From Polyangium mundeleinium (GTDB lineage Bacteria; Myxococcota_A; Polyangia; Polyangiales; Polyangiaceae), in contig NZ_JAQNDO010000001.1 of assembly GCF_028369105.1 (NCBI RefSeq), forward strand, positions 9,580,501 through 9,644,500: a DNA stretch of 64,000 nucleotides, given 5' to 3'. The first letter of the stretch is position 1, and every line of letters begins with the position of its first letter. The notes under the pieces were generated by a model, which was not told the origin of the DNA, made no database searches, and saw nothing but the letters and a program-made list of their open reading frames with translations. Shown here piece after piece: positions 6,150 through 28,169 of the stretch. The translations under genes were made by a program, and so were the position numbers.

Positions 6150-6769
6150 CAATCGAAATCCTCCACGTGCCAGACGCCCGCCTCGCGGCGCAGCTTCACC
6201 TCGTGGCCGCCCGGCACCTGCACGGTCGCGCGATCGCCGGCGACCTGCACCTCCAGGCCCTCCGGGTGCTCGAGCCCCTCGACGAGCGAACGCAGATCGT
6301 TCTCGATCGCGCTCCGCGTCGACGGCGAGAGGACCCGCAAAAGCCCGGCGTAGCTGCGCCGCGCGAGGACACGTCGGAGCTGCTCGAGCGCCTGCGCGGG
6401 CGTCTTCGCGCCTGCGGGCAGCGCGTCGGCGGCCGAGATCCGGAAGACGCCGCCTTCGAGCTCCAGCGTCGCCTCCTCGCCGTCCGCGTACCGCATGCGG
6501 GCGTGGGCCTTGATCGTCACGCCGGGTGCGGCGAGGGCCTTGGCCTGATCGGCGAGCTCGCTGCGCTCCTCGGCCACGATGCGACGCACGTCCTCGCGGG
6601 AGAGGCTCCGCTGGCCTTTCGCGGTCATCATGCCGTGGATCGCGTCGGCGTCACCACGTGCGGCCGCGTCGGCGTAGGCCTTCACGGCGTCCTTCGGGTC
6701 GGGCATGGCGGAGCCGCCGCACGCGGCAAGGGCGAAGGCGAGGCACGCGAAGGTCACGAACCGGGGCAC
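6149..6769 (-). CDS. Lipoprotein, first gene of the VWA/DUF4159 operon
   Basis: A 206-residue protein with a lipoprotein signal: a hydrophobic stretch ending in the lipobox LAAC at residues 14-17. The mature part starts with a helix-rich region (DAVKAYADAAARGDADAI) like NTF2-like or DUF4878 lipoproteins. It ends in a short beta-rich stretch (HEVKLRREAGVWHVEDFD) that recalls the tail of such folds. It overlaps the DUF4159 gene by one base and has about 120 bases of free upstream DNA, so the operon promoter should lie there. Function is unknown beyond probable envelope location. Confidence 0.75.
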   Translation of the reverse strand: MPRFVTFACLAFALAACGGSAMPDPKDAVKAYADAAARGDADAIHGMMTAKGQRSLSREDVRRIVAEERSELADQAKALAAPGVTIKAHARMRYADGEEATLELEGGVFRISAADALPAGAKTPAQALEQLRRVLARRSYAGLLRVLSPSTRSAIENDLRSLVEGLEHPEGLEVQVAGDRATVQVPGGHEVKLRREAGVWHVEDFD

Positions 6770-6890
6770 GGGCGGAGCCTAGTACAAAACGGGCGACCCG
6801 GGGCCTCGACGTCGCGCGCCGGACGACCTCGACCCTCGATCCCCCTGGTCGCTTGGACCTGGGAGCGGTACAGGTTGAAGCGGATCTCTC

Positions 6891-7436
6891 ATGTCGGGCC
6901 GCCCTTTCATCCGCCTCGCGGACCGCACGGACCTCGACGGATTCGCCGATCACATCGTCCGCCACTCGGCCGAGAGTGGACGCGAAGGCTCTTTGCATTT
7001 TGCGATCTCGCGTTCGCCCGAGCGCGCGAGCGTCCGAGAGCACGCGCGGCAGCGCTGGGAGCGCGCGCTGGAGGAGTCGCTCTGGGGCCGGTGTTTCCTG
7101 CTCGTCGAGCCTGTGCGGGGCTGGGTCGTGGGGCACCTCGAGCTCCGCGGCGGGCGTTTCTCGGCGGAGATGCACCGCGCGATCCTCGGCATGGGCATCG
7201 AGCGGGGGTACACGCGGAAGGGCCATGGCCAGCAATTGATGGAGGCCGCGATCGGCTGGGCGAAACGTACGGGCAAGGTCGCCTGGATCGACCTCGGCGT
7301 CTTCGAGCACAACCTCCCCGCCCGGACCCTCTACCAGCGGATGGGCTTCGTGGAGAACGGCAAGCGCAAAGACGCGTTCCGGATCGATTCGGGGATGCAG
7401 GTGACCGACATTTCGATGTCGCTCCGGATCGGCTGA
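6891..7436 (+). CDS. GNAT-family N-acetyltransferase
   Basis: A 181-residue protein with the GNAT fold. The acetyl-CoA motif A is visible as GIERGYTRKGHGQQLMEAAI near residues 103-122, followed by WIDLGVFEHNLPARTLYQRM and GFVENGKRKDAF, the usual final strands. It looks like the broad RimJ/YhhY-like group that acetylates amino groups of proteins or small molecules; the substrate cannot be read from sequence. It stands alone, with a strong hairpin overlapping its stop codon. The ribosome binding site is weak. Confidence 0.88.
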   Translation: MSGRPFIRLADRTDLDGFADHIVRHSAESGREGSLHFAISRSPERASVREHARQRWERALEESLWGRCFLLVEPVRGWVVGHLELRGGRFSAEMHRAILGMGIERGYTRKGHGQQLMEAAIGWAKRTGKVAWIDLGVFEHNLPARTLYQRMGFVENGKRKDAFRIDSGMQVTDISMSLRIG

Positions 7437-7464
7437 CGTCGAATTCGATAGCGAATTCGACGTC
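7435..7464. terminator. Perfect 13-bp hairpin at the end of the acetyltransferase gene
   Basis: GACGTCGAATTCG and CGAATTCGACGTC pair perfectly around the loop ATAG. The left arm includes the last two bases of the stop codon at 7436. There is no T-run after it, so it may act as an mRNA end-stabiliser or a weak terminator rather than a classic intrinsic terminator. Confidence 0.6.
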
Positions 7465-7610
7465 CTGAATGCGTTGTGTCCACGCCGTATCGCTACCACC
7501 GGTCCATCCCGACGTACGGACATGTCATGGGCCGTTCATCGTGGAGGTACGAAAGTAGTACGTGTACCTACTTGACGGGCGTCTTCCGGTGATGAACTAC
7601 TCGATTCGAT

Positions 7611-8119: not shown

Positions 8120-11100
8120 TCAAGCTGGCGGTGCAAACATCTGGACGAGCCTCCGCCACGTCGAAAGCACACGCCCGAGCCATGGCAGCTCGAACACCGG
8201 CGACACCACCGTGTACGTGGTCAATCGATCCAGGAAGAGCCACGCAAGCGAAGCGCGGAACGCGGCGCGTAACACCTCGTCGTCGAGCCCCGGCGCGGCC
8301 ATCTCGGCGTGAGCCCGCACGAGGAGGAACACCTCTTCCTCGCTCACCTCTGGGGACAACGTCCAGCAAAGAAGCTCCGCGACATCACGCGTCCCGGGCC
8401 CGAGCGCCGCAAGCTCCCAGTCGTAAAGAACGATCTCCCCGTCCGCCGCCCCCCGCCGCAATGCAAGATTCCGCGGATTGACGTCATTGTGCAGCAGCGT
8501 CACCGGCAGCGCGGCGAGCGCCTCGGCCCAGCCGACGTCCTCGAGCAAGGGCGCCGCCGCCGCCGCGACATCCGCGTCGATCCGCGTCCGCGCGTGCTCG
8601 AAGAGTGCTTCCCATAGCGGTACGAGCTCCGCCGCGCGTGTCCCCGCGGCCCGCGCCCAGGGCACCACGGACAGCGCCGCGGCAGGCCCTCGGAAGGCTG
8701 CATGCAATCGCGCAAGCCCCTTCACTGCACGCCGCACGGCATCGATGGGCCAAGGCTCGGCGACGGCGTCGAGCGCGTCCACCTGATCGCCTTCGCGCAA
8801 TCGTTCGAGCACCAACGGAGCGCCGATCGCTTCCTCCGGCGAGGAAAAACAGCGGGGCTGCACGCGGGCAAGCGCGGCATGGTCGAGCCCATACAGCGCG
8901 CGTTCGCGGGTATGGGCGTCCGCGACATCGAGCCAATGTCCGTGCATCTCCAGCGCAGCAGCGAGCGTAGGGCTCGAAGCACGCGCGACGCCGGTGCAAA
9001 GGGCGCGGAGCTCATCGCCGCGGGCCGGCGCTTTGAGGACGACATCGAGCACGCGGCCGCCGTCGAGCGTCAAGGTCGCCGGATACACGCCGACCGGGCG
9101 ATCACAGAACCCGCAAGCAAGGCGGCTCAAAAGGCCGCTGCCCATGATGGCTGGCATCACGCGGGCCGAGGTGACGTCGTGGGATATGCCGTCGACCACG
9201 ACCTGCCGAGGTGCCACCGGGAGCGCTCGTGAGGCCGCTGTGGCGCGCGCACCGCGCCGCGGTGGGGATGGGAGCGCGGAGGCCGCTTGCCACGCGGCGA
9301 CTCGCTCGTCGAGGAAAGCGGGGTCCACGGGCTCGGCCCCGCGGAATGCAGGCGCAACCGATATCGACGCGCGGCGCGATCGCTCGTAGGTTCGCAACGT
9401 GCCGGCGCGGAAAAACGGCCATAGGCCTCGCAACGCCCCGCGCCGATGGAGCCCCAAGGCCTCCACGCGTGCGAGCCACGCTTCCCACGGCATCAATGCG
9501 ACATCGTACCCCGCGAGCGCCAGCCACGCGACCACCTCGCGGAGCCCACGCGACTCGTCCCCCACGTGGACGAGCGCAGGCCCCGTTTCGACGAGGTCCG
9601 CGAGGACCCGCGCGAGGTGATCCCGTGGACAAACCGAAAATGGAAAATCGAGGTCCGGGGCCGCGCCCGCCTCGACGCACGCGCGAAGCAAAAGGGCCAC
9701 CACATCGTCCACGCTCGCCTCGCCGTCCCTCCCGCCGAGGACGAGCGAGGGCCGCACGATCGTGGCCGAAAGCCCTTCCTGCCGCGCACGATCCACGAGG
9801 AGCTCGGCCACGGCCTTCGAGGATGCATACCCGAGCGGCAAATGTGGGAGCCGCGCGCGGAGGGCCGCGGGGGGTTCGTCGTCGCCGAGGACGTCCCCCG
9901 ACGCGGCCGCGCCGTCGTGACATACGATCTGCGAGGACACGTGGACGAGCCGCGCCCCCGCGACGGCGCAAAGGGCAATCACCTCGGCCGTCCCGGAGGC
10001 ATTCGTGGGCGCGAGCGACGAATAGGGCAAGACCCAGTTCACGGCCCCCGCCACATGCACGACCGCGTCGAGCTCCGCGACGAGCGCACGATACCGATCC
10101 TCCCCGAGCCCGAGCTTCGGCAAGGAGACGTCCCCGGCCAAACCCGAGGTCCCTTTGGCGCCCCTCGCAAGCACGAGCACGCGGTTGTCGCGCCGCACGA
10201 GCTCGGCGACGACGGCGCGCCCGACGAACCCTGTCCCGCCAGTAACGAGAATCGTGCCACCGCCCGATCGACGCGGTCTAGACCGCGGCACGGGCCGCTC
10301 GAGGTCCTCTCGCCAGGGCGCATCGAGCATACCTCGTCCCTCGACGAGAGCCCGCAGGGACGACGCGCGCCCCCATACGTCGAGCGAAATCGGTCGACCA
10401 AGCAAATCCCCCAGCGCTGCCGCGGCGTCCGCGGCCTTCAATGAGTCGAGCGGCAAACGCGCGGGCGGCGCATCAATGTCGATTTCATCGAGCGAAAGCC
10501 CCGTGACCCTTGCAAGCACGAGATGCGCCGCGTGCAGCGGGCTCCCCTCCCCTGACGCAAGATCCGACACAGGAGGCGGGCAGACGGGCGTTTTGATCTC
10601 GCCGGCGCGCAAAAGCGCCTCGGTGGCCCGCCGCTGGAGCTTGCCCGACGACGTCTTCGGCAATGTGTGTTTCGGGACGAGCGCGACGTCGACGAAGATC
10701 CCATGCTCGAACGACACGACGCGATGGACCGCGGCAATCACCGCGGCGTAGCCGGCCTCGTCGAGCCGATCGTCGACCTCACAAACCACGACGGCCCGCG
10801 GCTCCCCTCCCTCCGTGTCATCCTCGCGCAACACGGCGCAGACGCAGCCCCGCCGGATCGCCGGATGCGCGCCCTCCGCCGTGCGCTCGACGTCGTGCGC
10901 GTGATGATTCTCGCCGCGAACGATGAGCACGTCTTTTTGACGCCCCACGATGAAGAGGCGATCGCCACGTCGATAGCCGAGATCCCCGGTGCGCAAAAAC
11001 GGCCCTGCCTCGCCGTCCGGACACGCGAGTGTCGCGCCAAACACCCCGCGTGTCGCCTCCGTGTCTCCCCAATATCCATCCGCGACGCTCTCGCTCTGGA

Positions 11101-12289
11101 GCCAGATCTCGCCGATACGCCCGTCCGGGAGCGGCCGCCGCGTCTCCGGATCCACCACCCGCACCGTGACGAGCGGCGGGATTTCCCCCACGCACACGAC
11201 GTCGATCGTGCGCTCGCCGGCCGCCTCCTCAGCCTCGCCGCGCGCGAGCGCCGCGGCCGAGAGGCGCTCGACCGTGAAGGGCGCGTGCGTCCGGCAGGAA
11301 GCGAGTACGGTGTGCTCGGCGAGCCCATAACAGGGAAACCACGATCTCGCCGAGAATCGCGACGGCGCGAACGCCTCCGCGAACGCGGCGAGCGTGCTCG
11401 CGCGAATGGGCTCGGCGCCGCAATAGGCCTGGGCCCAGCAGGAGAGATCGAGCGTTTCGCGCGCAGCCGGATCGATCTTCCGGACGCAGAGGTCGTAGGC
11501 GAAATTCGGCCCGCCGCTGCGCATCGCGCCGAACCGCTCGATGGCCCGGAGCCACCGCAGCGGTCGTTCCAGAAAAACCCACGGCGGCATGAGCCACGCC
11601 GGCCAGCCGCCGTCGAGCGGCAGCAAGATCCCCTCGATGAGCCCCATGTCGTGGAATTGCGGGAGCCAGCTCACGGAGGCGCGCGGAATCGTGGGCGCGA
11701 CGCCGTGGATGACGTGCAGGTTGTGCGAGAGGTTGCTCCGCAGCACGCGCACGCCCTTGGGCGCGGCCGTCGAGCCCGACGTGTATTGCAAAAAGGCGAG
11801 ACCATCCCCGCGCGGATCCTCGACGCGGCGGCGCACGCGCGGGACCGCCGTCACGTCGATCCAGGGCAAACCCGCGAGCGCGGGCACGGCGTCGGCGAGA
11901 ATCGGGCGATAGGGCAAAATCACCGCCGTCGAGAGCACGCCCGCGGGCGCGGCATGCGCGACAAGGTGGCCGAGCCGCGCGAGGCTCCGCGCCGGCTTGT
12001 GAGGGTCGGGCGGAATGGCCGGCACCGCGACCCTCCCCGCGCGAAGACAAGCGAGAAAGGCGACCACGAAATCGATCCCCGGCGGGAAAAGCAGGAGCAC
12101 CCGCGCCTCCTCGGGAAAACGCTCGACCAGGGCAGCAGCCACGTCGTCGACGCGCGCATCGAGCGCAGCCACCGTGAGCGAGGCCGACACCTCTTCGCCG
12201 TCATCGAGAAACCCGAGCGCGAGTTCGTCCCCCCGCGCCTCGGCGCGACGGCGCAATTTCAGAGGCAGGAACGTGAATGTGCCGCTCAC
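8120..12289 (-). CDS. Fatty acyl-AMP ligase / carrier protein / thioester reductase / APH-like kinase fusion
   Basis: A 1389-residue, four-part enzyme. (1) An adenylating domain of the fatty acyl-AMP ligase type, about 1-570: YTSGSTAAPKGV near 168, YGLAEHTVLAS, GRQKDVLIVRGENHHAHDVE and KTSSGKLQRRA. (2) A carrier protein with the phosphopantetheine serine in LPLDSLKA near 614. (3) A thioester-reductase/SDR domain: TILVTGGTGFVGRAVVAEL near 675 and the YxxxK pair in GYASSKAVAE near 823. (4) A C-terminal aminoglycoside-phosphotransferase-like kinase: LLHNDVNPRNLALR near 1266 and VLYDWELAALGPGTRDVAE. Fatty acid would be activated, loaded, reductively released as aldehyde or alcohol, and possibly phosphorylated. 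The start is a GTG overlapping the upstream acyltransferase stop (GTGA); the open frame continues upstream but only as antisense to that gene. It resembles the described myxobacterial ether-lipid enzyme ElbD in spirit (inference). Confidence 0.9.
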   Translation of the reverse strand: MSGTFTFLPLKLRRRAEARGDELALGFLDDGEEVSASLTVAALDARVDDVAAALVERFPEEARVLLLFPPGIDFVVAFLACLRAGRVAVPAIPPDPHKPARSLARLGHLVAHAAPAGVLSTAVILPYRPILADAVPALAGLPWIDVTAVPRVRRRVEDPRGDGLAFLQYTSGSTAAPKGVRVLRSNLSHNLHVIHGVAPTIPRASVSWLPQFHDMGLIEGILLPLDGGWPAWLMPPWVFLERPLRWLRAIERFGAMRSGGPNFAYDLCVRKIDPAARETLDLSCWAQAYCGAEPIRASTLAAFAEAFAPSRFSARSWFPCYGLAEHTVLASCRTHAPFTVERLSAAALARGEAEEAAGERTIDVVCVGEIPPLVTVRVVDPETRRPLPDGRIGEIWLQSESVADGYWGDTEATRGVFGATLACPDGEAGPFLRTGDLGYRRGDRLFIVGRQKDVLIVRGENHHAHDVERTAEGAHPAIRRGCVCAVLREDDTEGGEPRAVVVCEVDDRLDEAGYAAVIAAVHRVVSFEHGIFVDVALVPKHTLPKTSSGKLQRRATEALLRAGEIKTPVCPPPVSDLASGEGSPLHAAHLVLARVTGLSLDEIDIDAPPARLPLDSLKAADAAAALGDLLGRPISLDVWGRASSLRALVEGRGMLDAPWREDLERPVPRSRPRRSGGGTILVTGGTGFVGRAVVAELVRRDNRVLVLARGAKGTSGLAGDVSLPKLGLGEDRYRALVAELDAVVHVAGAVNWVLPYSSLAPTNASGTAEVIALCAVAGARLVHVSSQIVCHDGAAASGDVLGDDEPPAALRARLPHLPLGYASSKAVAELLVDRARQEGLSATIVRPSLVLGGRDGEASVDDVVALLLRACVEAGAAPDLDFPFSVCPRDHLARVLADLVETGPALVHVGDESRGLREVVAWLALAGYDVALMPWEAWLARVEALGLHRRGALRGLWPFFRAGTLRTYERSRRASISVAPAFRGAEPVDPAFLDERVAAWQAASALPSPPRRGARATAASRALPVAPRQVVVDGISHDVTSARVMPAIMGSGLLSRLACGFCDRPVGVYPATLTLDGGRVLDVVLKAPARGDELRALCTGVARASSPTLAAALEMHGHWLDVADAHTRERALYGLDHAALARVQPRCFSSPEEAIGAPLVLERLREGDQVDALDAVAEPWPIDAVRRAVKGLARLHAAFRGPAAALSVVPWARAAGTRAAELVPLWEALFEHARTRIDADVAAAAAPLLEDVGWAEALAALPVTLLHNDVNPRNLALRRGAADGEIVLYDWELAALGPGTRDVAELLCWTLSPEVSEEEVFLLVRAHAEMAAPGLDDEVLRAAFRASLAWLFLDRLTTYTVVSPVFELPWLGRVLSTWRRLVQMFAPPA

Positions 12290-13038
12290 GCCGCCGCTCG
12301 ATCGGGGTTTGGCGCGGCGATCTCGGCCTCGAAGGCCTGGAAGACGCCGCGCACGTGGTCGGCGTGCTCGCGGGCGGTCTCGGGTCGCCAGCCGCTCGTG
12401 TCGATCTCGGGCAAGACGTGGACGATCACCCTCGTCCGCGTCATGACCCAGCTCTTCCCGGGGTTCTCGGCCCGCGGAATTTCGAGATGAAGCGGCACCA
12501 TCGGCGCCCCGAGTGCCGCCGCCAGGTGAAACGCGCCTTTGTTGAAAGGCCCCACGCCGCCCGAGACCACGCGTGTCCCTTCCGGGCTCAAATACACCGC
12601 GTCCCCCGTCTTTCGGAGCACCTCGCACGCAGCAGCGAAGAGCTTGCGGCGTTTTTCGGTGTACGTCTGCGGCACCGTGAAGAACGTACCGACACACACC
12701 GCCACGAGCGCGCCCGGCGGAAACACCCACGCGCCGCGCTTCATGAAGAACCACGCGCGCGGCAGACGCAATGAGAGCAAAACGAAGAGATCGATCGACG
12801 AGGTGTGATTCGAGACGTACACGACGCGGCGCTCCGGCAGCGGAACCACCGGCGCGCGCACTTCGACGGAGACGCCTGAGAGGCGCAGGACCACGGAAGC
12901 GGCCCAGGCCCCAAGCCCCTCGGCCGCGGCGCGCCTGCCAAAGAGGAGACGTACCAAGACGAACAGCGGCGAGAGGGCCGTGACGAAAAGAATAGTCAAG
13001 ACGAGGGCGACGACGCCTCGAATCCGCTTCAGGCTCAC
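12286..13038 (-). CDS. PlsC-like 1-acylglycerol-phosphate acyltransferase
   Basis: A 250-residue membrane-associated acyltransferase. It has an N-terminal membrane segment (about 8-32), the catalytic HTSSID (HX4D) near residue 78, FMKRGAWVFPPGALVAV, and the phosphate-binding block SPEGTR near 150 followed by FNKGAFHLA. Such enzymes acylate lysophosphatidate or related glycerol phosphates. It starts at a GTG overlapping the methyltransferase stop (GTGA) and its own stop overlaps the ligase fusion start, so it is translationally coupled within the lipid operon. A housekeeping PlsC role cannot be excluded, but the context points to a dedicated lipid. Confidence 0.9.
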   Translation of the reverse strand: MSLKRIRGVVALVLTILFVTALSPLFVLVRLLFGRRAAAEGLGAWAASVVLRLSGVSVEVRAPVVPLPERRVVYVSNHTSSIDLFVLLSLRLPRAWFFMKRGAWVFPPGALVAVCVGTFFTVPQTYTEKRRKLFAAACEVLRKTGDAVYLSPEGTRVVSGGVGPFNKGAFHLAAALGAPMVPLHLEIPRAENPGKSWVMTRTRVIVHVLPEIDTSGWRPETAREHADHVRGVFQAFEAEIAAPNPDRAAA

Positions 13039-14012
13039 GGCGAAGCCCCCGACGAGGGCCGTTCGAGGACGATCGTCTGCATGGCCAGGTTGAGCTGTTT
13101 TTCGAAGAGCAAGACCGGCGAGAGCGCGAGCTGTCCCGCGAAATACGGGCCGATCGCCTTGCCTACGTCGAGCCCCTTGCCGCGCAGCACGTGGAAGGCC
13201 GCGCCCGCGAAGAGGTAAAAATAGGCCGGAAAGGCGCCCCAGGGCAGGTGGTCAACGATCGAGAGGCCGCTCTTCTCGCACATCGCCCGGAGCGTTTGCC
13301 AATCGAAGAGCACCGTGTGTTGTGGCGCCTGGAGGCCCGGCCAGCGGTCCTTGAAGAGCCGGAAGCTCGTCGAATCGAGGCGCGGCACCTCGATGACGAC
13401 ACGCCCCCCGGGCGCAAGCAGGCTCCGCGCGCGCTCGAGCGTCTGCAAGGGCTCGTAATCGTGCTCCAGGAAATGCCACATCGTGATCAGGTCGAAGCGA
13501 GCGTCGCCGAAATCGATGTCCGCGAGCACGCCGAGGCGAAAATCAACGCCGTCGAGCAACGGGTTTCCCCGGAGATCCTTGAAATCGACCCCGGTCACGG
13601 CGGCGCCGTGCTTCTTGCGGAGCATCTGCAGGAAGCTGCCCACGGCGCAGCCGATGTCGAGCACGCGCATGCCGCGCCGGGGGGAGACGTACTGGCCGCA
13701 AAGCTCGACCTTGCGGCGATCGTGCCCGTTCATGCCCCATTCATAAAGCGGCGTGAACACGCCCCAATCCTTCTTCTTGCGATGGGCAATGTACTCGGAG
13801 TCGTAATACGCGCCAATGTCGTCCTGAAGAATCCGCGGTCGCTGATAGGCGAGGTCACACGCACGGCAACGCACGAAGCGAAATCGACCGGGTTTGCCGG
13901 TGAGATCGTCTTCGGCCTCGATGAGGAAATCAGCGTCGCGCCCACCACAACCAGGGCAAGCATTGTCTTCCATGCGGGGCTTCGTGTCCGGGATCGTGGC
14001 CTCGATCGTCAT
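13035..14012 (-). CDS. Class I SAM-dependent methyltransferase with N-terminal zinc ribbon
   Basis: A 325-residue protein. The N-terminus has two Cys pairs (CPGCGG near 20, CRACDLAYQRP near 52) that suggest a zinc ribbon, as in many methyltransferases acting on lipid- or sugar-linked substrates. The Rossmann motif I is VLDIGCAVGSFLQML near residue 110, and motifs near FDLITMWHFLEH and RVVIEVPRLDS complete the fold. The C-terminal third is hydrophobic and may touch the membrane. The ATG at 14012 was chosen because the longer open frame upstream is antisense to the UbiA-like gene. The target group in the lipid operon is unknown. Confidence 0.88.
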   Translation of the reverse strand: MTIEATIPDTKPRMEDNACPGCGGRDADFLIEAEDDLTGKPGRFRFVRCRACDLAYQRPRILQDDIGAYYDSEYIAHRKKKDWGVFTPLYEWGMNGHDRRKVELCGQYVSPRRGMRVLDIGCAVGSFLQMLRKKHGAAVTGVDFKDLRGNPLLDGVDFRLGVLADIDFGDARFDLITMWHFLEHDYEPLQTLERARSLLAPGGRVVIEVPRLDSTSFRLFKDRWPGLQAPQHTVLFDWQTLRAMCEKSGLSIVDHLPWGAFPAYFYLFAGAAFHVLRGKGLDVGKAIGPYFAGQLALSPVLLFEKQLNLAMQTIVLERPSSGASP

Positions 14013-14023
14013 CGTCGTGTCCT

Positions 14024-14662
14024 TCAGAAAACGCGGTCGTGAATCAGCCAGAGCGCAGGTCCAGCGCAAAGACAAACCAGGTCGACGAGGACCAGCGCGG
14101 GCGCGAGGGGTCCGCGGCGCGCGTCTTCGTCGTGCACGAGCTCGTAGGCGGCGACCACGCCATACAGCGTGATCGCGCGGCCGAGCACCACGAGGGGGGG
14201 CGTGTCCGGGAGGGCGAGACCAAGCACGAGCGCAGGCACCTTGAGCAGAATCACGTGAGCGAAGAGTCCACGCAGGCCGGGCCAAACCACACGCGCGGCG
14301 AAGGCGCCCTGGGAGGCGAGGACCGCGCCAAGAAATGGCGCGATCGCGGCTCGGGTGAACCCGATCGAAGCCGCCGTGAACGCGAGCCCGCCCAGCGCGT
14401 AGAGCAAGGGCTCGGTCGTGGTAACGAGGCGGCAAAGCACGCGCTCGGGGTGGTATTTTCGATCGTGCGGAAGATCCGTGACGTCGTCCCACAAGCGAAA
14501 CGCGACGATCCCGAAAAGCGCAGTCGTGGTCCGGGGAAAAAGCCTGCCGGTCCCGCCCGCGAGCGCGATGAAGAGCGCGAGCGGCACGAGCAGGTACCAC
14601 GACGCATGGACGCGCTCGCGAAACCACATCACGGACCAATGCCCGTCACGCGAGCCGAACAT
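14024..14662 (-). CDS. UbiA-superfamily-like integral membrane protein
   Basis: A 212-residue protein with about six or seven membrane segments. The stretch RLWDDVTDLPHDRKYHPER near residue 75 fits the first UbiA prenyltransferase motif (N/D)DxxDxxxD; a second acidic patch, YELVHDEDARRG near 170, lies where the second Asp-rich motif would be. It is shorter than typical UbiA enzymes (about 290 residues) and the second motif is degenerate, so this is a tentative call. Family members transfer isoprenoid or related hydrophobic chains, including ether-bond formation in archaeal lipids. The start is uncertain: ATG at 14677, 14662 (GGAGA upstream) or 14629. It overlaps the dikinase gene by 17 bases if 14662 is used. 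Confidence 0.6.
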   Translation of the reverse strand: MFGSRDGHWSVMWFRERVHASWYLLVPLALFIALAGGTGRLFPRTTTALFGIVAFRLWDDVTDLPHDRKYHPERVLCRLVTTTEPLLYALGGLAFTAASIGFTRAAIAPFLGAVLASQGAFAARVVWPGLRGLFAHVILLKVPALVLGLALPDTPPLVVLGRAITLYGVVAAYELVHDEDARRGPLAPALVLVDLVCLCAGPALWLIHDRVF

Positions 14663-17201
14663 GCCCCGTGTCTCCATCGACGACGATGTCGCGGCCGTGG
14701 CGGATCCGCGTGGTGGCCTCGGGGACGCCGACGACCGACGGAATGCCGAGCTCCCGCGCGAGGATCGAGCCGTGCGAGAGCATGCCGCCGCGTTCGAGGA
14801 CGAGGCCCTTCACGAGGAAAAACAACGGCGCCCAGCCGGGGTCCGTTTGTCGCGCCACGAGCACGTCGCCGGGCGCGAGCTTACCCGCATCGGCGAGCCC
14901 CCCGAGCACCGCGGCGCGCCCCGAAACGCGGCCTCCGCTGGCCGGGACGCCGCGCATCACGCCGTCGTCGGCAGGGAGATCGGGCGCGGGATCCACGGGC
15001 GCAGAGAGCGCGGAAGGCGCGACGCACGTGCCCGCGGCGAGGGTGAAGACATCGGGCAGATCGAGCGCGGAAAGCGCGGCATGTTCGGCGCGGCGCGACG
15101 CGACGAGCGCGCGCACGTCGCTCGGGGAACCGCGGCCTGCCGCGAGATCCACGAGCTCGTCGAACCGAAGGAAAAACACGTCGGCGGCGGCGTCCGTGGT
15201 GCCCGCTGAAACGAGCCGCCGGCCGAGGGCGAGCGCGACGCTGCGCAGGCGCGTGTACAGCAAGGCCTGCCGAAACCGCGCACGCTCACGAAGCTGCACG
15301 GACGTCTGCGTCGCAAGCACGAGCGCATCGAAGAGCGGTCGCAAGGCACGACGAGGTCCCCCGAGCCGCGCGCGGAGCCGTGCCGTCTCGCGCTCGCGCT
15401 CGGCACGCTGGCGCTCGAACGCACGCGCGGGGCTCTCGATGGTTGGATCCCCAACGGCCTCCACGTACCGCGAAAGCAGCGGCAGAAGGCGGTCCGGCTC
15501 CTCCGCGAGCGAAGGCTCGGTGAGCAAGAGCTCACCCGATCCGCGGAAGCCGAACCGATCGAGCCATTCGTCGACACGCGCGACGAGCTGCGGGCCGAGC
15601 GCGCCACGAAATACGGCAAAGCTTCCCCCACACGCAGCGAGCGCCTCGCGCGCGGGCGCGTCCGCGCGAACCACGACCGCGAGCTCCCACAACGCGCGGA
15701 GCGACCACGCGCCGGCGACGTCGAGCCCCTTGAGGAGCGCGTGGTGCCGCGCCGCGGGGTCCTCCGCGCCGTGCCCGCTCGCGACCGCGTCATCGGGATC
15801 GATCACGCGGAGGAGCGCCTGCAACGCGCGATACGTGACAGCGGCCGCGCAGTCGGCGAGCGAGGCGTCGACCCAGCGCCGGAGACGCACGTCGAGGATC
15901 GCTTCGAGCCCCTCAGCGAGCGCGCGCATGGGCATCGCCTCGACCTCGCGCGGATGAAACCGCGACGCGACGTCGTCCACCACGTGCTCGAAGCGGGCCA
16001 CGCGGGCCGGCAGATCACGATACGCGCGCGCCACGTGGGTGATCACGCGGCCGAGCGCCGTGATCTCGTCGGTCACGCGCCGGCCCTCGGGCGACGAGGC
16101 GCCCGCGCCCACGAAGACGTCGAAGCTGTCCACGAACCAGTCGCCGAACGGCATGAGCCGGAGGACCGCGTGGATGTGCGAGAGGTTGTAGTAGAGCCGC
16201 GCGCCGTGCGCGTCGACGATGCCGCGGAACGCCTCGTCGTGGGCTTCGATGCGGGCGTCCACGATCCCGAACGCGCGCGCCAGGTTGCGGAAATACGCGT
16301 CGTATCCCGCGCGGGCGAACGAGACGAGGAGCGGCGTCACCGGCGCCGGGAAGTTCTCGCTGATGTTCGCGTTCGACCACAAGAACGTGCGCCGATCCGT
16401 GACCGGCCGCGCCTGCACGATCCAGAGGTTGTCCTCGGGATCGACGGCCCACTCGAGGTCGAGCGAGAGGCCGCGCCGCCGTTCGAGCGTGGTCGCGTGG
16501 CGAACGAGCGCGCGCGTGGCTTGGTCCGTCAGAGGAAACGGGCTCTCGTCCTCGGGCAAACGCTCGACGTGCGCAACGCGACGCGTGCCTTCCATCGCGC
16601 GGCGATCGAGGCGAAAGGCGCCCGGCGTGATCGCGCCGTCGACGAGCGCTTGTCCGTGCCCGCGGCACCATTCGCCACGAAGCATCACGCCGTCGGTGAA
16701 GAGGACGCCGGCCGCCGCGCTGGGCACGAGCCGCTGCACGACGACCGCGGCGCCCTGCAAACGCACCTTCCGGGCCTGCTCGTACGCACGCACGCGCGCC
16801 GCCGCGCACGACGCCACGCACCGACGCACGGCGCTGAGGATCGCCGCGGGATCCGCGCCGTCGACCGGAAAGATCGATTCGAGCAGCCCCGCGAAGGCCG
16901 CCGTCGTCCCGTCCTCGCCAACGGCCGAGCTGCGCACGATGAGCGGCCCGCCGCCAAGCCTCCGGCGCGCCTCGTCGAGCGCCTCCATGCAGCGCGCCGG
17001 CACGGGTTTGCCCTCGTCCGTCAGCGCCTCGGAGAAGGCCGTCGTCAGGATCACGCCCTCGGGCACGGGCGCCCCCACGGCGCGGAGCTCCTGCAGCGAT
17101 CGTCCCTTCCCGCCGATGAGCGCGACGTCGTCGACGGCGTCGAACCCCCGCACGAACGGCGGCTTCCGGAGCACCCCCCCGATCCCCCCATGCCCCCTCA
17201 T
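14646..17201 (-). CDS. PEP-synthase/rifampicin-phosphotransferase-like dikinase
   Basis: An 851-residue protein with the three-part plan of rifampicin phosphotransferase (RPH, about 867 residues). An ATP-grasp PPDK_N domain comes first, about 10-300 (GGKGRSLQELRAVGAPVPEG, LIVRSSAVGEDG, LDLEWAVDPEDNLWIVQARP). A large middle substrate domain covers about 310-740. A C-terminal swivelling domain carries the phospho-His in GGMLSHGSILARELGIPSVV; this His is residue 810, 41 from the end. RPH enzymes move the beta-phosphate of ATP to a hydroxyl of a hydrophobic compound, so a lipid alcohol is a reasonable substrate here (inference). The ATG at 17201 overlaps the CarS-like stop (ATGA). Central gluconeogenic PEP synthase is unlikely because the middle domain differs. 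Confidence 0.85.
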   Translation of the reverse strand: MRGHGGIGGVLRKPPFVRGFDAVDDVALIGGKGRSLQELRAVGAPVPEGVILTTAFSEALTDEGKPVPARCMEALDEARRRLGGGPLIVRSSAVGEDGTTAAFAGLLESIFPVDGADPAAILSAVRRCVASCAAARVRAYEQARKVRLQGAAVVVQRLVPSAAAGVLFTDGVMLRGEWCRGHGQALVDGAITPGAFRLDRRAMEGTRRVAHVERLPEDESPFPLTDQATRALVRHATTLERRRGLSLDLEWAVDPEDNLWIVQARPVTDRRTFLWSNANISENFPAPVTPLLVSFARAGYDAYFRNLARAFGIVDARIEAHDEAFRGIVDAHGARLYYNLSHIHAVLRLMPFGDWFVDSFDVFVGAGASSPEGRRVTDEITALGRVITHVARAYRDLPARVARFEHVVDDVASRFHPREVEAMPMRALAEGLEAILDVRLRRWVDASLADCAAAVTYRALQALLRVIDPDDAVASGHGAEDPAARHHALLKGLDVAGAWSLRALWELAVVVRADAPAREALAACGGSFAVFRGALGPQLVARVDEWLDRFGFRGSGELLLTEPSLAEEPDRLLPLLSRYVEAVGDPTIESPARAFERQRAERERETARLRARLGGPRRALRPLFDALVLATQTSVQLRERARFRQALLYTRLRSVALALGRRLVSAGTTDAAADVFFLRFDELVDLAAGRGSPSDVRALVASRRAEHAALSALDLPDVFTLAAGTCVAPSALSAPVDPAPDLPADDGVMRGVPASGGRVSGRAAVLGGLADAGKLAPGDVLVARQTDPGWAPLFFLVKGLVLERGGMLSHGSILARELGIPSVVGVPEATTRIRHGRDIVVDGDTGHVRLA

Positions 17202-17779
17202 CCTGCCCTCTTCTTCACGCCGAGCACCCACAAAAGGACGCTGAAAAGCCCGTGGATCGGCGGCCCAATCAAGAGGCAGAAGAGCGCCGTTTTCCACGAT
17301 AGTTCGACGACCAACGATGCGCCGGCGAGCGCACCGACGACCGAATCCAGCCGATCGGCCACGGCCGAGATCACGCGCCCCAAGCGGTGCTTCGGCGGCG
17401 CGCCCGGCTCGACGTCGAGCTGACGTTTCACGAAGGAGTTCGGCAGCTCCCCGAGCATCAACCCGAGCGCCGAGACCGCGCCGAGCAGGAGGAGCCCCGG
17501 CAACGTCGAGGGCCACACGGCGAGGCCGAGGCGCGGAGCCGCGGTCCCAAGGCCGGCCATGGCGAGCGCGGTCGCGGGCACGATGACCACGAAGCCACGC
17601 GTGGTCTTGTTGTCGCCGAAGAGGCGTCGCCCCCGGAACGTGTGACCTCCGTCGAGCGGACGGGTGAAACGTTTCGAGAGCGGATGCGCGAACCACGCGG
17701 ACTGGCAGGCGCCGCCGACAACGAAGCTCCCGACGAGGAGCCCAGCACAAGCGAGCGGAGAGAGCGCCGCGGGTTCCAT
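17198..17779 (-). CDS. CDP-archaeol synthase (CarS)-like CTP transferase
   Basis: A 193-residue polytopic membrane protein that fits the CarS/DUF46 family: HTFRGRRLFGDNKTTRGF near residues 46-63, then GELPNSFVKRQLDVEPGAP near 110 and DRLDSVVGALAG near 142. CarS activates phosphatidate-like ether lipids with CTP to give CDP-diacyl/dialkylglycerol. A bacterial member embedded in an acyl-reducing operon points to a non-standard phospholipid. It starts five bases after the desaturase stop and overlaps the dikinase start by ATGA. No CDP-alcohol phosphotransferase is in this operon; one lies 41 kb away at 58632. Confidence 0.82.
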   Translation of the reverse strand: MEPAALSPLACAGLLVGSFVVGGACQSAWFAHPLSKRFTRPLDGGHTFRGRRLFGDNKTTRGFVVIVPATALAMAGLGTAAPRLGLAVWPSTLPGLLLLGAVSALGLMLGELPNSFVKRQLDVEPGAPPKHRLGRVISAVADRLDSVVGALAGASLVVELSWKTALFCLLIGPPIHGLFSVLLWVLGVKKRAG

Positions 17780-17783
17780 GGGG

Positions 17784-18764
17784 CTAGATCGAGAGGCCGG
17801 AGGTGCTCCGGTTCTTGAAGAGAAAGACCTCGGCCGGCACGGCCTTGGCGGCGCGGATCCAGGCCCACGCAGGCGCCTCGTTCGGCGGCGTCCACGGGAT
17901 CTCGCGGAGGCGCGGGCCCGGCACGAAGGGGAAGACGTGGTGCAATTCGTGCGCGTCGAACCCCGTCAGGACGAACGTCGACAAGAAGCCCGAAAACCGG
18001 AGCGAACGCGTGTACGGCGCCTGCTCGGGCGCGGGAATCGGCGTGACGTCGGCGCCGTGGGAGAGCTCGAGCGGGATGTGCGTGTGCTGGCTCAACATGA
18101 TCACATCCATCCACGCGAAGCCGAGAAAAAGCCCGAGCCCGAAGAGGCGCAGCAGCGCCGCGGGTCCGACGAACACGAAGGCCGCGGCATAAATCGCGAG
18201 CAAGGCGAGCGCATTGACGACGAAGGCGCGACGTGCGCGAGCCTCGGGGAAGAGCCGGAAGAGGCGCGGCAGGTGCCAGAAGCTCTGCGCCCGGTAGAGG
18301 AACGAAAACAGCGGGAGCCAGGCGCGCCAGGCGATGTTGATCGCAGCGCGCTCGAACGTGCCGAGCGGGCGCGGGACGAGCGAGGAGGTCGTGGGATCCT
18401 TGTCCTGAAAGCCGGTCCATTTGTGGTGCATGCGGTGGATGGCTTTCCAGCTCGCATACGGGAGCACCGAGATCACGGAGGCGAGGTGGCCGGCGAGGGT
18501 ATTCAGGCCCCGCGTCGCGAAGAGCGTGTGATGTCCGGCCTCGTGCAGGAGGGAGAACCATTTCACGAAGGAGACGGCGAACACGATCTGCCCGACGAAC
18601 CACGCGGCCCACGACGCGCGCGAAGACAACGCGATCCCCGCAGCCGTGAGGGACACCGCGACGAACGTGTGCAGCGCGCCCTCGGCATCCCGCGGCCGGA
18701 GGTCTGTCACGGCGGCGTCACGCGCGGACGGGGGACGGGCGGGAGAGGCCTTCGGGGGAGCCAT
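17784..18764 (-). CDS. Membrane fatty acid desaturase
   Basis: A 326-residue membrane-bound di-iron desaturase/hydroxylase. The three His boxes are clear: HEAGHH near 75, HRMHH near 112 and HELHH near 285, with hydrophobic pairs between them; QHTHIP near 225 is a fourth His patch. The likely start is the ATG at 18764 (MAPPKASPARPP); an ATG 17 codons upstream would run into the next gene's end. It is the first gene of the lipid operon. It could desaturate or hydroxylate the acyl chain, or introduce the vinyl-ether bond of a plasmalogen; which one cannot be told by eye. Confidence 0.9.
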   Translation of the reverse strand: MAPPKASPARPPSARDAAVTDLRPRDAEGALHTFVAVSLTAAGIALSSRASWAAWFVGQIVFAVSFVKWFSLLHEAGHHTLFATRGLNTLAGHLASVISVLPYASWKAIHRMHHKWTGFQDKDPTTSSLVPRPLGTFERAAINIAWRAWLPLFSFLYRAQSFWHLPRLFRLFPEARARRAFVVNALALLAIYAAAFVFVGPAALLRLFGLGLFLGFAWMDVIMLSQHTHIPLELSHGADVTPIPAPEQAPYTRSLRFSGFLSTFVLTGFDAHELHHVFPFVPGPRLREIPWTPPNEAPAWAWIRAAKAVPAEVFLFKNRSTSGLSI

Positions 18765-18777
18765 GGCGCCGGATCGG

Positions 18778-19521
18778 TCAGAACTGGCCCGCGAGCGACA
18801 AACCTTGTTTGTCACGGTCGATCATGGGCAGGACGGTAAACGAGGGCATCGCGGACGTGCGTTTGCGTTTCGGCTCCGGCTCCGACTCCGCGTAGCTGAG
18901 CACGGCGATGTCGACGACGGGCCAGGCGACGACCGAGAGGAGGACCAAGGGGATGGTCATGTCCCTCGCGTCGCTCACATCGGCGATCATGGCGCTGACG
19001 ACGGGCAAACCCACATTGAGCCCGAGGCTCAAGAACCCGCGGCCGACGTTGCCATGGACCCAGTGCACGATGGGCGCCGTCAAGCAATGCCCAGCAGCAC
19101 CGAGACCCACCATCACCACGCCGATGTCTTCGGTGCTGTGGCTGCTGAACGTGAGCACGTAGCCGAGCGTAAACACGACATCGGAGGGGATGAGTCCAAG
19201 CAGTGTTTTCGCGCCGTACCATTGCCGCGTCGACGACGCGGACGCCTTCCCCTCGTCCTCGAGCCTCCACCCGGGATAAGGCCCATAGGCCCACGGCGGC
19301 GGGCGCTGCATCCAGGAGGGCTGGGCCCACGGAGGCGCAGGCGGCGGCGCGCCAAGCGTCGCAGGGGGTGCGGGTGCGGGCACGGACCCAGCTGCGGGCG
19401 CGGAATCGGACGCGGGAGCCGCCGAGGGCGCGGGCGGCGGCGGTGGCGCTGCACGCGCGGCGGTGGCGCCGAGGGCGGCGAACGCGGCGGAAGCAAGCGG
19501 CAAGAAGACACGCGGCGGCAT
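18778..19521 (-). CDS. Secreted/membrane protein with Pro/Ala-rich N-terminus, unknown function
   Basis: A 247-residue protein. The ATG at 19521 gives a clean signal peptide (PLASAAFAALGATAARA); an ATG nine codons earlier does not. A Pro/Ala-rich stretch (about 25-70) is followed by a WMQRPPPWAYGPYPGW patch and then four or five hydrophobic helices. The pattern is common among myxobacterial membrane proteins of unknown role. It ends 13 bases before the desaturase start and may therefore be part of the same transcript as the lipid operon. I do not recognise a domain. Confidence 0.7.
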   Translation of the reverse strand: MPPRVFLPLASAAFAALGATAARAAPPPPPAPSAAPASDSAPAAGSVPAPAPPATLGAPPPAPPWAQPSWMQRPPPWAYGPYPGWRLEDEGKASASSTRQWYGAKTLLGLIPSDVVFTLGYVLTFSSHSTEDIGVVMVGLGAAGHCLTAPIVHWVHGNVGRGFLSLGLNVGLPVVSAMIADVSDARDMTIPLVLLSVVAWPVVDIAVLSYAESEPEPKRKRTSAMPSFTVLPMIDRDKQGLSLAGQF

Positions 19522-19580
19522 CGATGGCTCCGGTCCGTCAGGCAGCACGCCACGACGAAAAACGCGGACATCGTATCACC

Positions 19581-23469: not shown

Positions 23470-24039
23470 TCAGGCCAACCCTAGCCGCTCCCGCGCGCCC
23501 TTCACGCCGAAGATCGTGCCCCCACCCGGCGGTACGATCGGAGCGAGCAGGATCGACGCGAGGATCGCCGCAAGCGCGAGCGGCGCGTCGGGATCGTCCC
23601 CCTCGGCGACCTCGCTCGACACCTGCCAGACCCGAAGGCCGCGCTGAACGAGCACATCCATGCCCGCGCCGCCGATCGCCGCCGCGCCCGCCTCCGCGCA
23701 GAGGCGCGCCTCGGGCGCCTCCTCCACGGGCACGGTCACCACGCGCACGCGCGACGCGGCGCTGCGTCCCTTGCGCTGGACCAACATGACGGCCGCGTCC
23801 GCCGCGGGCGTCTCGCCGTTCGGGTAGGCCTTCGGCTGCTCGATCTCGAGCGTCACGCCGAAGAACGTGCGGGCCTTGTGCGCCCAGAGCGCGATGTCGA
23901 CGCGGGCCGAAGGATCTTGCGCGAGGAGCGTGTACGCGCTCGACACGGGGAGCGGCTCGACCCGAGAGCTCGCCCAACCATTGCGGTCGACATCCATGCC
24001 CGCACGATACGCCGTCCGCGACGGCCCCGGTATCGGCAT
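23470..24039 (-). CDS. Hypothetical protein coupled to the kinase/ATPase gene
   Basis: A 189-residue protein with no domain I recognise. The ATG at 24039 shares one base with the TAA of the upstream kinase (TAATG). The middle has alternating strands (VDIALWAHKARTFFGVTLEI) and the last third a hydrophobic segment rich in Ala, Leu and Ile ending PIVPPGGGTIFGVKG that may be membrane-associated. The coupling suggests it works with the kinase. A strong terminator follows. Confidence 0.6.
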   Translation of the reverse strand: MPIPGPSRTAYRAGMDVDRNGWASSRVEPLPVSSAYTLLAQDPSARVDIALWAHKARTFFGVTLEIEQPKAYPNGETPAADAAVMLVQRKGRSAASRVRVVTVPVEEAPEARLCAEAGAAAIGGAGMDVLVQRGLRVWQVSSEVAEGDDPDAPLALAAILASILLAPIVPPGGGTIFGVKGARERLGLA

Positions 24040-27000: not shown

Positions 27001-28169
27001 GAGGCGTGGACGATCTGCGCGCCGAACGGCTCGAGCGCGCGCCGCAGGGCGATCGCATCGAGGCTCGACTCGAAGCAGGCGATGCACACGACGCGCCGCT
27101 CGGCGCTCTTCGGTGCCTTCGCTCCGGGCGGCGGATCGAGCGTGGGTACCGCGAGCACGAGGTGCTCCTCGTCCGGCAGCGCGAGCGTGGCGGCGAGGCT
27201 CGCGCGCAGGTAGGCGGCCGAGGGAGGGCGATCGGCGGGGGCCTTGGCGAGGCAGCGCAGCACGATGTCCTCCACTGCGGACGGGATCGATCGCGCGAAC
27301 GGCGGCGGCGCGACGGCCGACGGGGGCGGCGGCCTCTGGCTCACGTGGCCCTCGCGCACGAGCGGCGCGGGACCGAAAAACGGCGGACGCCCTGTGAGCA
27401 TCTCATACAACAAGATGCCCATCGCGTAGATGTCGGTGCGCGTGTCCTCGCCGCGGTGCCCCTCGCACGACTCGGGGGCCATGTACTCGCTCGTGCCCAC
27501 GATCGCGCCCGCCGCCGTGAGCGCGGGGGCCGCGGGCCAAACGGCGCACGTGACGCCGAAATCGAGCAGCACCGCGCGTTTCCCTTCGGCGTCGACGAGG
27601 ATGTTTTCCGGCTTCAGATCGCGGTGCACGAATCCCCGCGCGTGGAGGGCCTCGAGCGCGCGCAGCACCGCGAGCCCGAGCAGGATCGCCTCGCGGGCGG
27701 GCAGCGGCCCCGCGCGGGCGAGCAGGTGATCGGCGAGCGTCCTCTCGGCGACGAGCTCCATGACCACGTACGTCCCCGTGGAGGCGAGCTCTTCGCGCGC
27801 GAAGAAGGCCGGCACGTGGGGCGGGCCGACTGCGCGCATCACCTCGACCTCGCGCACGAGGCGCGGCGCGGCCTCGGGCACGTCCGGATGCGCGAGCTTG
27901 ATGGCCACGCGCTCTCCGTCCTCGATGCGCCGCGCCGCATACACCACGCCAAACCCCCCGCGGCCCAGCGTGCCGGAGACCTCGTAGCCTGGAAACACCG
28001 GCGCGGGTGGCTCGGGTGGCTCGGGCGTGATCGTGTCCGGCGGGCCTGTGCCGTGCTCGGGGCAACCGTCCACGGGTACGCGCCGCCCGCACGCGAGGCA
28101 TCGGATGCCTCGCCGTGGGCCCAGGGAAACCGGGCCCTCGTCGAGCGGCGCGCCGTGGACAAACGTCAT
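24039..28169 (-). CDS. Ser/Thr protein kinase fused to ATPase and TPR regions
   Basis: A 1376-residue signalling protein. The start has a CxxC-H-like patch (CLACGRRVPVDGCPEHG). The kinase spans about 55-320: GRGGFGVVYAA, VAIK, HRDLKPENIL near 180, LLDFGVT and YMAPESC. Next, about 350-490, comes a region that looks like a degenerate nucleotide-cyclase-type fold (RRVVCIACFESSLDAIALRR). A STAND/AAA-type ATPase follows with Walker A EAGCGKS near 550 and Walker B LCVILDDAHF near 690. The last 450 residues are helical repeats of the TPR type. Myxobacterial kinases of this build act as large regulatory scaffolds. The ATG at 28169 overlaps the lipoprotein stop (ATGA). Confidence 0.92.
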   Translation of the reverse strand: MTFVHGAPLDEGPVSLGPRRGIRCLACGRRVPVDGCPEHGTGPPDTITPEPPEPPAPVFPGYEVSGTLGRGGFGVVYAARRIEDGERVAIKLAHPDVPEAAPRLVREVEVMRAVGPPHVPAFFAREELASTGTYVVMELVAERTLADHLLARAGPLPAREAILLGLAVLRALEALHARGFVHRDLKPENILVDAEGKRAVLLDFGVTCAVWPAAPALTAAGAIVGTSEYMAPESCEGHRGEDTRTDIYAMGILLYEMLTGRPPFFGPAPLVREGHVSQRPPPPSAVAPPPFARSIPSAVEDIVLRCLAKAPADRPPSAAYLRASLAATLALPDEEHLVLAVPTLDPPPGAKAPKSAERRVVCIACFESSLDAIALRRALEPFGAQIVHASAGRYVAAFGHEVDENPARRALEAARSLTEQGACERVGLDLAAVAVHLGPEGSRRILAPRIAREDRFPKASSPPGVSLSAAARAVLEASGVAPDPLPGYLDGSVEETPPTSSGEITDVTSSRNAIPLSGRERVLDALTELARQAIEGTLPSVAVVLAEAGCGKSFLKRALVERLVQVLPGTRLIVFSAHEPVHGAAGSVRELLQRALGLPDEAPEDGGRELLAARLGPARHVEAGATVARSLGWISKGSGAPITGPSALHAIEVAPGALRTLLTVSVGEALRRRALEAPLCVILDDAHFADEATLAILDLAARAEARAPLFVCVLGRPSFEEDHPSWGARAHRRAMHRLGPLDPASAAALCRELLRPAENVPESAVARIAARAEGVPLLLVELVRGLKAQGIVRKHPSGSGYFLATDELDDLPDLPLIEWLAHRELDALPPAARAHACLAAVLGAEVTVAEMHGVLGRLDRMSAGGDFPLDARVGSERLVAAGLLARHGAGRYAFRHALVREAIARSVPEAQRARIHLAAMAYFQQASGWDGRSPPSGDERHLAQLAHHATNAGERALGERAYLALAEAARARHDWLDAERCYTRALEASTTSAGAPDKPLDLRQGALRGRGLMRYRLGRYPDALDDLALAREAAAGDPLAEAEILLDEATVLDWMADYEASRARVVAAEGILPESRPPALLARLLLGQGLSLLRFSREAEAVPLFERAIEVADAIGDEAYEPRIVALTMLGFVLPALGCLAEAERAIVRAIELCESHGDDLHLASVINARALLAALVGDKARMVADFERVAWLGRELGQDWLEILACHNLGEYLYLWDDLDAAEPHAARALALEVRHTGGAPRPVIALLDGRLRHFRGDLEGAREAAARIRAQAGPALSVPAEDVLCVMLELATRDTDDATWDALEARSREFSVGQERLEVTEARGLSALRRGRTAEARRHFERALAIGRTVPNVMTPRIERHLARTRSDEATLRS

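Follow-up and report, generated by a model that had tools for sequence, protein, structure and literature searches.

A seven-gene operon of Polyangium mundeleinium that may direct a second, archaeal-style phospholipid route from a reduced fatty chain

The 64,000-nucleotide stretch of DNA analyzed here (the window) covers positions 9,580,501-9,644,500 of the main contig in the 13.25 Mb, two-contig genome of Polyangium mundeleinium. It holds an operon of seven genes, all confirmed on the minus strand between 8120 and 18764, in the order desaturase (DES), CarS, RPH, UbiA, methyltransferase (MT), PlsC, and a fusion of fatty acyl-AMP ligase (FAAL), acyl carrier protein (ACP), thioester reductase (TR) and kinase (KIN; Table 1). 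Gene content, conservation, motifs, the predicted UbiA fold of one product, and swaps of the reductase-kinase partner in related operons are the basis for reading the operon as a dedicated second phospholipid route, which would use a reduced fatty chain and an archaeal-style logic, probably with an ether bond, which the UbiA-like enzyme would make. This reading is put forward tentatively, with chances somewhat short of even.

Table 1. Coding features of the operon, in order of transcription (window coordinates).
Feature	Position	Strand	Size and evidence
DES, membrane fatty acid desaturase, first operon gene	17784..18764	-	326 aa; Pfam FA_desaturase 2.2e-26
CarS-like CTP:lipid-phosphate cytidylyltransferase (predicted)	17198..17779	-	193 aa; Pfam CarS-like 1.5e-11
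RPH/PPDK-like dikinase	14646..17201	-	851 aa; Pfam PPDK_N 1.3e-34 and PEP-utilizers 3.7e-24
UbiA-like membrane protein	14024..14662	-	212 aa; no Pfam match; relatives, motifs, predicted fold
S-adenosylmethionine (SAM) methyltransferase, MT	13035..14012	-	325 aa; Pfam Methyltransf_23 1.9e-24
PlsC-type acyltransferase	12286..13038	-	250 aa; Pfam Acyltransferase 4.8e-16; NHx4D, SPEG
Fatty acyl-AMP ligase-ACP-thioester reductase-APH-like kinase fusion	8120..12289	-	1389 aa; Pfam and NCBIfam
C-terminal kinase domain (KIN) of the fusion	8120..9004	-	Alignment; AlphaFold2 (AF2) pLDDT 82.2; Foldseek

A preliminary description had presented the genes as coupled, by ATGA or GTGA overlaps or by gaps of at most 11 bases, and this held at every junction but one. 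DES and CarS are separated by 4 bases and UbiA and MT by 11, while four-base overlaps join CarS to RPH (ATGA), MT to PlsC (GTGA), and PlsC to the FAAL fusion. The RPH/UbiA junction is not a four-base GTGA overlap, because the GTG there is out of frame; the overlap is 17 bases if the UbiA-like gene starts at the ATG at 14662, with 14677, 14632 and 14629 as alternative in-frame starts. Coding is supported by a third-position GC content of 0.80-0.89 across the seven genes. The identities first assigned to the desaturase, CarS-like, RPH-like, methyltransferase, PlsC and FAAL-ACP-reductase products were borne out by Pfam, the ACP weakly, and that of the UbiA-like product by its relatives, motifs and predicted fold. 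An open frame without a Pfam match lies on the same strand at 18778-19548, 13 bases upstream of the desaturase start, and could be co-transcribed with the operon.

The block recurs in several other phyla. A scan of named genomes gave 78 CarS loci (here and below loci are numbered L and genomes G). Three gene sets bear labels coined in this analysis: type I is the window gene set, type II an HMG-CoA reductase (HMGR)-kinase set, and type III the clostridial set of CarS, phosphatidylserine synthase (PSS), phosphatidylserine decarboxylase (PSD), UbiA and RPH. CarS-like and UbiA-like proteins are present in all six genomes of the genus; among 53 other relatives searched, the UbiA-like query found no match and the CarS query found only G024 (36%), a member of the window genome's own family. 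The 20 closest loci (L014-L032 and L041) carry DES, CarS and RPH and come from Polyangium, Acidobacteria, Gemmatimonadetes, Planctomycetes, one betaproteobacterial metagenome-assembled genome (MAG), and three unplaced hosts. Fifteen of them have the complete block in identical order, and the other five, the betaproteobacterial one included, are cut by contig ends; the 20 are not all independent, since the CarS of L019 and that of L020 are identical and there is close similarity within L030-L032 and between L021 and L041. FAAL is a separate reading frame in the 11 complete loci outside Polyangium and is again fused, in one frame, in L113. Because the TR and KIN profiles were built from whole open reading frames (ORFs), their matches in L024, L025, L029 and the type II loci are not counted as domain evidence. 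Of 282 Myxococcota genomes, 11 gave a CarS match, a weak one in the last three; two of these other Myxococcota (L113, L116) have the complete block with DES moved to the 3' end, and two (L114, L115) have parts of it, up to the contig starts. Chance clustering was rejected on the recurrence of an identical gene order in several phyla, and the gene block is real and old.

Trees of CarS (70 rows) and RPH (44 rows), hand-picked from the loci at hand, bear on how the block spread. The CarS of these operons, 26 rows from all the phyla concerned, group together (SH-aLRT 100) with Polyangium not adjacent to the other Myxococcota, whereas in the RPH tree the type I sequences fall together (84) with Polyangium beside the other Myxococcota (91); the two trees thus disagree on the details. 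The patchy distribution suggests that the operon was spread by horizontal transfer. Cultured carriers include Polyangium fumosum DSM 14668 for the window type and Aestuariivivens sediminis S-DT1-15 for the HMGR-kinase type.

Active-site motifs are kept across these loci with few exceptions. The three His boxes of the desaturase (HEAGHH, HRMHH and HELHH) are retained across 23 aligned rows, except for the short frames of L019 and L020, with small changes in L030-L032 and L076; PlsC is divergent in L076. The CarS-like protein scores 45.1 bits against its family profile (PF01864; cut-off 22), with the conserved motifs and invariant columns present. The RPH-like protein has both hallmarks of RPH/PPDK dikinases, an ATP-grasp domain and a C-terminal phosphohistidine domain (LSHG); its best PDB matches are 5hv1, 5hv2 and 5fbs (deposited as phosphoenolpyruvate synthase), and the catalytic His is kept in 30 of the 30 rows covering the site (33 aligned). 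The methyltransferase has an N-terminal CxxC pair and DxGC and WH(F/Y)LEH motifs. Within the FAAL fusion, Pfam detects AMP-binding (2.4e-47) and NAD_binding_4, a male-sterility-type reductase (1.3e-37). The ACP, with Ser615 in a DSL motif, matches PP-binding just under the cut-off (0.0011, 19.6 bits), which is exceeded in four relatives of the fusion, and the NCBIfam FAAL models match, each under its own cut-off. The motifs GGTGF (684), YASSK (821), HNDVN (1267) and YDWE (1289) are present, and the domain set is that of a FAAL-ACP-TR protein. The KIN domain has no Pfam match of its own; its relatives match APH/EcKL, the catalytic H, D, N and D are invariant in an 18-row alignment (A3), and a Foldseek search with its model returned the APH/choline-kinase fold; 25-hydroxysteroid kinase, one of several matches, came at ranks 5 and 7.

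The UbiA-like protein carries a motif I (DDxxDxxxDRxxHPxR) and a motif II (YExxHD), and its AF2 model (alignment A1, 25 rows) has a pLDDT of 94.3 and a pTM of 0.89. The first six Foldseek matches of this model are the A. fulgidus UbiA homologue (probability 0.99-1.00, E 0.02-0.07), followed by UBIAD1 and a membrane phosphoribosyltransferase (PRTase), with DGGGPS at ranks 45 and 47. Structural alignment by VIA-align gave Z scores as high as 13.6 with isoprenoid synthases and, against UbiA 4od5, Z 12.6 at 3.5 A over 190 residues, values at which two helical folds may be alike by chance. Pfam UbiA is matched by the relatives in L047, L074 and L037, and not by that in L036. On the model, the protein has the UbiA fold, together with the Asp-rich motif I. 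When PDB sequences were searched, DGGGPS alone was found at E <= 0.1 with a mixed UbiA profile (9.9e-8), and it was the only significant match with a type II profile (1.3e-9). The UbiA profile with which the loci themselves were searched for UbiA-like genes contains L076, L036, L037, L039, L044, L047, L060 and L074, and finds these by construction. The CarS profile (A2) had a single match at E <= 0.01, the CDP-archaeol synthase 5guf (3e-12). A CdsA-family protein (PF01148) is present in 15 of 15 genomes tested, so CarS is an extra enzyme. In the available portion of a review, CarS and CdsA are said to distinguish archaeal lipid phosphates from bacterial ones (PMC9385802). There is good reason to expect that CarS forms a CDP-lipid, the part of the pathway proposed below in which confidence is highest.

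A second line of evidence comes from loci in which KIN is fused to an HMGR-like domain that replaces FAAL-ACP-TR. These are deltaproteobacterial L036, L044 and L047 (L044 and L047 being near-copies), L039 from an uncultured proteobacterium, L076, L126 and L127 from Flavobacteriaceae (three of 199 genomes searched), and L097 from G024; L037, where just the end of an HMGR-kinase ORF is present, was left out of the residue counts below. The HMGR domain was matched by Pfam at 9e-97 to 2e-104 in the four fusions scanned, and the remaining fusions were identified by phmmer. Otherwise L076 is the window operon, with PlsC, HMGR-KIN, CarS, RPH, UbiA-like, MT and DES, and its UbiA-like protein matches those of type I in phmmer (4.2e-9 to 3.1e-4), an independent link to type I. 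All eight HMGR-like domains retain the catalytic Glu, Lys, Asp and His. The positions of Ser684 and Lys735 (human numbering), which we take to have HMG-binding roles in class I HMGR, are occupied in all eight by E/D and by I/G/V/H/C, respectively; the only class I controls, 6hr7 and 8ecg, both keep S and K, and the two stand-alone HMGRs of P. mundeleinium (L098, L099), which in the alignment lack the residues typical of class I near Lys691/692 and Lys735, were unusable as controls. HMG-CoA synthase was not found in any of the four deltaproteobacterial type II genomes, which are MAGs, so that its absence is no proof. The fusion is the only HMGR in three of these genomes, and the fourth (G068) has two partial HMGR matches at the ends of two contigs, as from one gene halved. 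Stand-alone HMGRs and HMG-CoA synthase matches occur in P. mundeleinium, G024 and G334, and G069 has a stand-alone HMGR with no synthase match. A mevalonate role for the HMGR-like domain was rejected on the two changed positions and the HMG-CoA synthase not found. The fusion of one kinase family to two unrelated thioester reductases makes it likely that the substrate of the kinase is the alcohol which the reductase produces from an acyl thioester.

The neighbors of CarS in the wider family are those of phospholipid synthesis. A CDP-alcohol phosphatidyltransferase adjoins five of the 20 type I loci (upstream in L021 and L041; downstream in L018, L022 and L023) and also lies upstream in L114 and L116, with Pfam checks in four of these seven; there is none inside the Polyangium operon. 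PSS-like and often PSD genes are found in most type II and clostridial loci. The L097 region has HMGR-kinase, PSD, PSS-like, CarS, GNAT-like and RPH genes, and a UbiA profile search of it returned no UbiA-like gene. Clostridia, including Lachnospiraceae, have conserved CarS-PSS-PSD-UbiA-RPH operons (L040, L042, L045, L046, L048, L060, L066, L073, L074 and others). Some operons of clostridial type carry two RPH paralogues of different lineages, and in three clostridial loci scanned an AMP-ligase (in two) and a weak GNAT-like protein stand in place of the reductase-kinase. A strict swap of "kinase and one RPH" for "two RPHs" was rejected, as numerous clostridial operons carry a single RPH and lack a kinase. 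Further side observations are an ORF beside the type II operon of L047 (L047:13512-16838) that combines radical SAM, methyltransferase and DUF5714 domains and, in the window, an open frame near the operon without a Pfam match (6651-7523) and a protein of 1398 aa with protein kinase, AAA ATPase and TPR repeat domains (24039-28235).

From these data a pathway can be proposed. FAAL would load a fatty acid onto the ACP, and the thioester reductase would release a fatty alcohol, or an aldehyde that is reduced further. The fused kinase would make an alkyl phosphate, to which the RPH-like dikinase would add a second phosphate, yielding an alkyl diphosphate that mimics a prenyl diphosphate. The UbiA-like enzyme would then attach the alkyl group to a lyso-glycerophosphate at its free hydroxyl, forming an ether bond as DGGGPS does in archaea, while PlsC would supply an acyl chain. 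The resulting ether phosphatidic acid would be activated with CTP by the CarS-like enzyme and would receive its head group from a CDP-alcohol phosphatidyltransferase of the kind that adjoins the operon in some relatives, and the desaturase and methyltransferase would tailor the product. That RPH makes an alkyl diphosphate and UbiA forms the ether has, at best, about an even chance. A lipid route of this kind had been suggested in the preliminary description. The HMGR-kinase fusions strengthen its reduction and phosphorylation steps, and a UbiA-type bond and CTP activation fit; the ether bond, like the order of RPH and UbiA and the final product, we infer. More broadly, it is conceivable, if somewhat doubtful, that bacteria of several phyla make ether lipids by the archaeal scheme adapted to fatty acids, in which a reductase-kinase gives an alkyl phosphate, RPH an alkyl diphosphate, and UbiA an ether from a non-isoprenoid donor before CarS acts, the reductase being FAAL-ACP-TR or a repurposed HMG-CoA reductase that would act on fatty acyl-CoA.

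Several observations weigh against this pathway. The UbiA-like protein of the window has no Pfam or NCBIfam match at E <= 0.01, that to Pfam UbiA included, its model has no Foldseek match at E <= 1e-3, and the type I UbiA profile alone retrieved nothing significant among PDB sequences, with DGGGPS at rank 4 (E 0.49). UbiA enzymes use allylic diphosphates, and a saturated, non-allylic alkyl diphosphate as donor would be new chemistry; a 2-enoyl chain, by giving an allylic alcohol, would remove this difficulty. In the HMGR-like domains the equivalents of Arg590, Asp690 and Lys692 are kept in eight of eight, so the HMG pocket is not wholly lost.

A further point against it is a minimal operon of HMGR-KIN, CarS, a CDP-alcohol phosphatidyltransferase and a GtrA-like membrane protein in two Flavobacteriaceae (L126 and L127, in G529 and G513), where no RPH or UbiA was found within the 14 kb read, the rest of those genomes not having been searched. 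CarS may thus act directly on an alkyl phosphate, and these loci are the strongest point for a route in which CarS would make a CDP-alkyl that a CDP-alcohol phosphatidyltransferase turns into an alkyl-phospho-head-group lipid, with RPH and UbiA adding something else and no glycerol ether arising from the reduced chain. Such a route is unlikely: PlsC is present in 15 of 15 complete type I loci, which suggests a glycerophosphate backbone, in 50 of the 78 loci CarS is accompanied on its strand by both RPH and UbiA, and RPH and UbiA could lie elsewhere in the two Flavobacteriaceae genomes. Held unlikely to the same degree is a pathway in which UbiA would join an isoprenoid or alkyl chain to a lipid alcohol, or act like a PRTase on an alkyl phosphate, and RPH would then phosphorylate the product for CarS. 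It draws on the clostridial operons, which carry UbiA, RPH and CarS, mostly with PSS and PSD, and in which no kinase or reductase was found, so that RPH may act after UbiA there, as well as on the membrane-bound PRTase 8j8j at Foldseek rank 8. There is no isoprenoid gene among the seven, however, and of the two RPH lineages in clostridial-type loci, one includes the type I RPHs and all but one of the seven of type II, apart from the RPH common to most clostridial loci, while that of G024, the exception, joins the other; function may therefore differ.

FAAL-ACP-TR modules are frequent in natural product clusters, and the operon could make a secreted or specialized lipid metabolite of this sort rather than a membrane lipid, in keeping with its patchy distribution (CarS in 11 of 282 Myxococcota genomes). 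This is less probable again, because CarS and PlsC, with the CDP-alcohol phosphatidyltransferase and PSD partners of the wider family, indicate phospholipids, and because an HMGR-like reductase can replace FAAL-ACP-TR. That the operon is an elb-type (ElbD) cluster or another described route (archaeal GGGPS/DGGGPS, Ger/PlsA) is very improbable, for although it shares AMP-ligase, ACP, reductase and acyltransferase activities with ElbD and one DUF2229 protein is encoded elsewhere in the P. mundeleinium genome, the genes and architecture differ, so that gene content already contradicts it, elb is not conserved in Polyangium as far as the accessible text of PMC12766979 goes, and PcrB/GGGPS was found in none of eight type I genomes and DUF2229 in none of the seven besides P. 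mundeleinium, an AGPS-like enzyme not having been searched for. The DUF2229 proteins do count against the proposed ether pathway in another way, as other ether routes may exist alongside the operon: that of P. mundeleinium (Ger/PlsA or dehydratase-activase type; G000:C1:10407828-10408523, in a 1218-codon frame) lies far from the window, and others occur in two of the three deltaproteobacterial type II genomes searched, out of four such genomes.

If the proposed pathway is correct, it would be a further bacterial ether-lipid route beside ElbD, the AGPS-like enzyme and Ger and would be relevant to the lipid divide that separates bacteria from archaea; a relative of HMG-CoA reductase would then be expected to reduce other acyl thioesters. 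No description of the operon was found in the open-licence literature, among the matches listed. In the available parts of the sources, ElbD and Ger are the enzymes named for bacterial alkylglycerol ethers, Ger turning a glycerolipid ester bond into an ether (PMC11150832), and Cloacimonetes have archaeal-type genes, but without CarS (PMC7852524). PMC11868695, in the text at hand, describes the acidobacterial ether-lipid route as unclear and considers that some Planctomycetes may use alternative strategies. An operon present in both of these phyla that joins the UbiA and CarS families with fatty-acid reduction is a testable candidate for such a missing route.

Among known systems, the elb (VEPE-AEPE-TG-1) cluster resembles the operon in having an ACP and domains that activate and reduce fatty acids and transfer acyl groups for ether-lipid synthesis; in the sections available, elb is described in M. 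xanthus with an AGPS-like enzyme as a minor ether-lipid route (PMC9131029). The relation to elb put forward in the preliminary description did not survive. The suggested comparison was carried out as Pfam gene content against this published description, with no ElbD sequence compared: the operon has no NAD-epimerase ElbA/E, HAD-like ElbB or ElbD architecture, while elb, as that partial text describes it, has no CarS, UbiA, RPH or kinase (PMC9131029), and elb identity was rejected. Elb is also reported, in the portion seen, not to be conserved in Polyangium, Sorangium and Nannocystis (PMC12766979). With Ger/PlsA the operon shares only the presumed end product, an alkyl ether lipid, and Pfam finds no large BadF/DUF2229-type protein among its products. 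The domain order FAAL-ACP-TR is that of other FAAL-ACP-thioester reductase systems, to which the fusion adds a C-terminal APH-like kinase and a setting in a lipid-type operon. The mevalonate pathway, in which HMGR is followed by kinases, likewise runs from thioester to alcohol to phosphorylated product, and related operons have the HMGR-like domain; they differ from it in the two HMG-binding positions, in a kinase that is APH/EcKL-like rather than GHMP, and in the HMG-CoA synthase not found in the four deltaproteobacterial genomes. An archaeal-type pathway with GGGPS (PcrB, PF01884) was rejected on its absence from the eight type I genomes, in a search that detected its positive controls and found, in seven other genomes, one match over the cut-off in G069 and two below it in G024. 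The archaeal ether-lipid pathway (GGGPS, DGGGPS, CarS and head-group transferases) differs further in that its chain comes from a prenyl synthase and not from FAAL-ACP-TR or an HMGR-like reductase, and the operon has an extra kinase, RPH, PlsC, desaturase and methyltransferase. What the two have in common is a UbiA-superfamily enzyme, CarS and a CDP-alcohol phosphatidyltransferase, with PSD in some relatives, and among PDB sequences the type II UbiA proteins match DGGGPS best and CarS matches CDP-archaeol synthase best.

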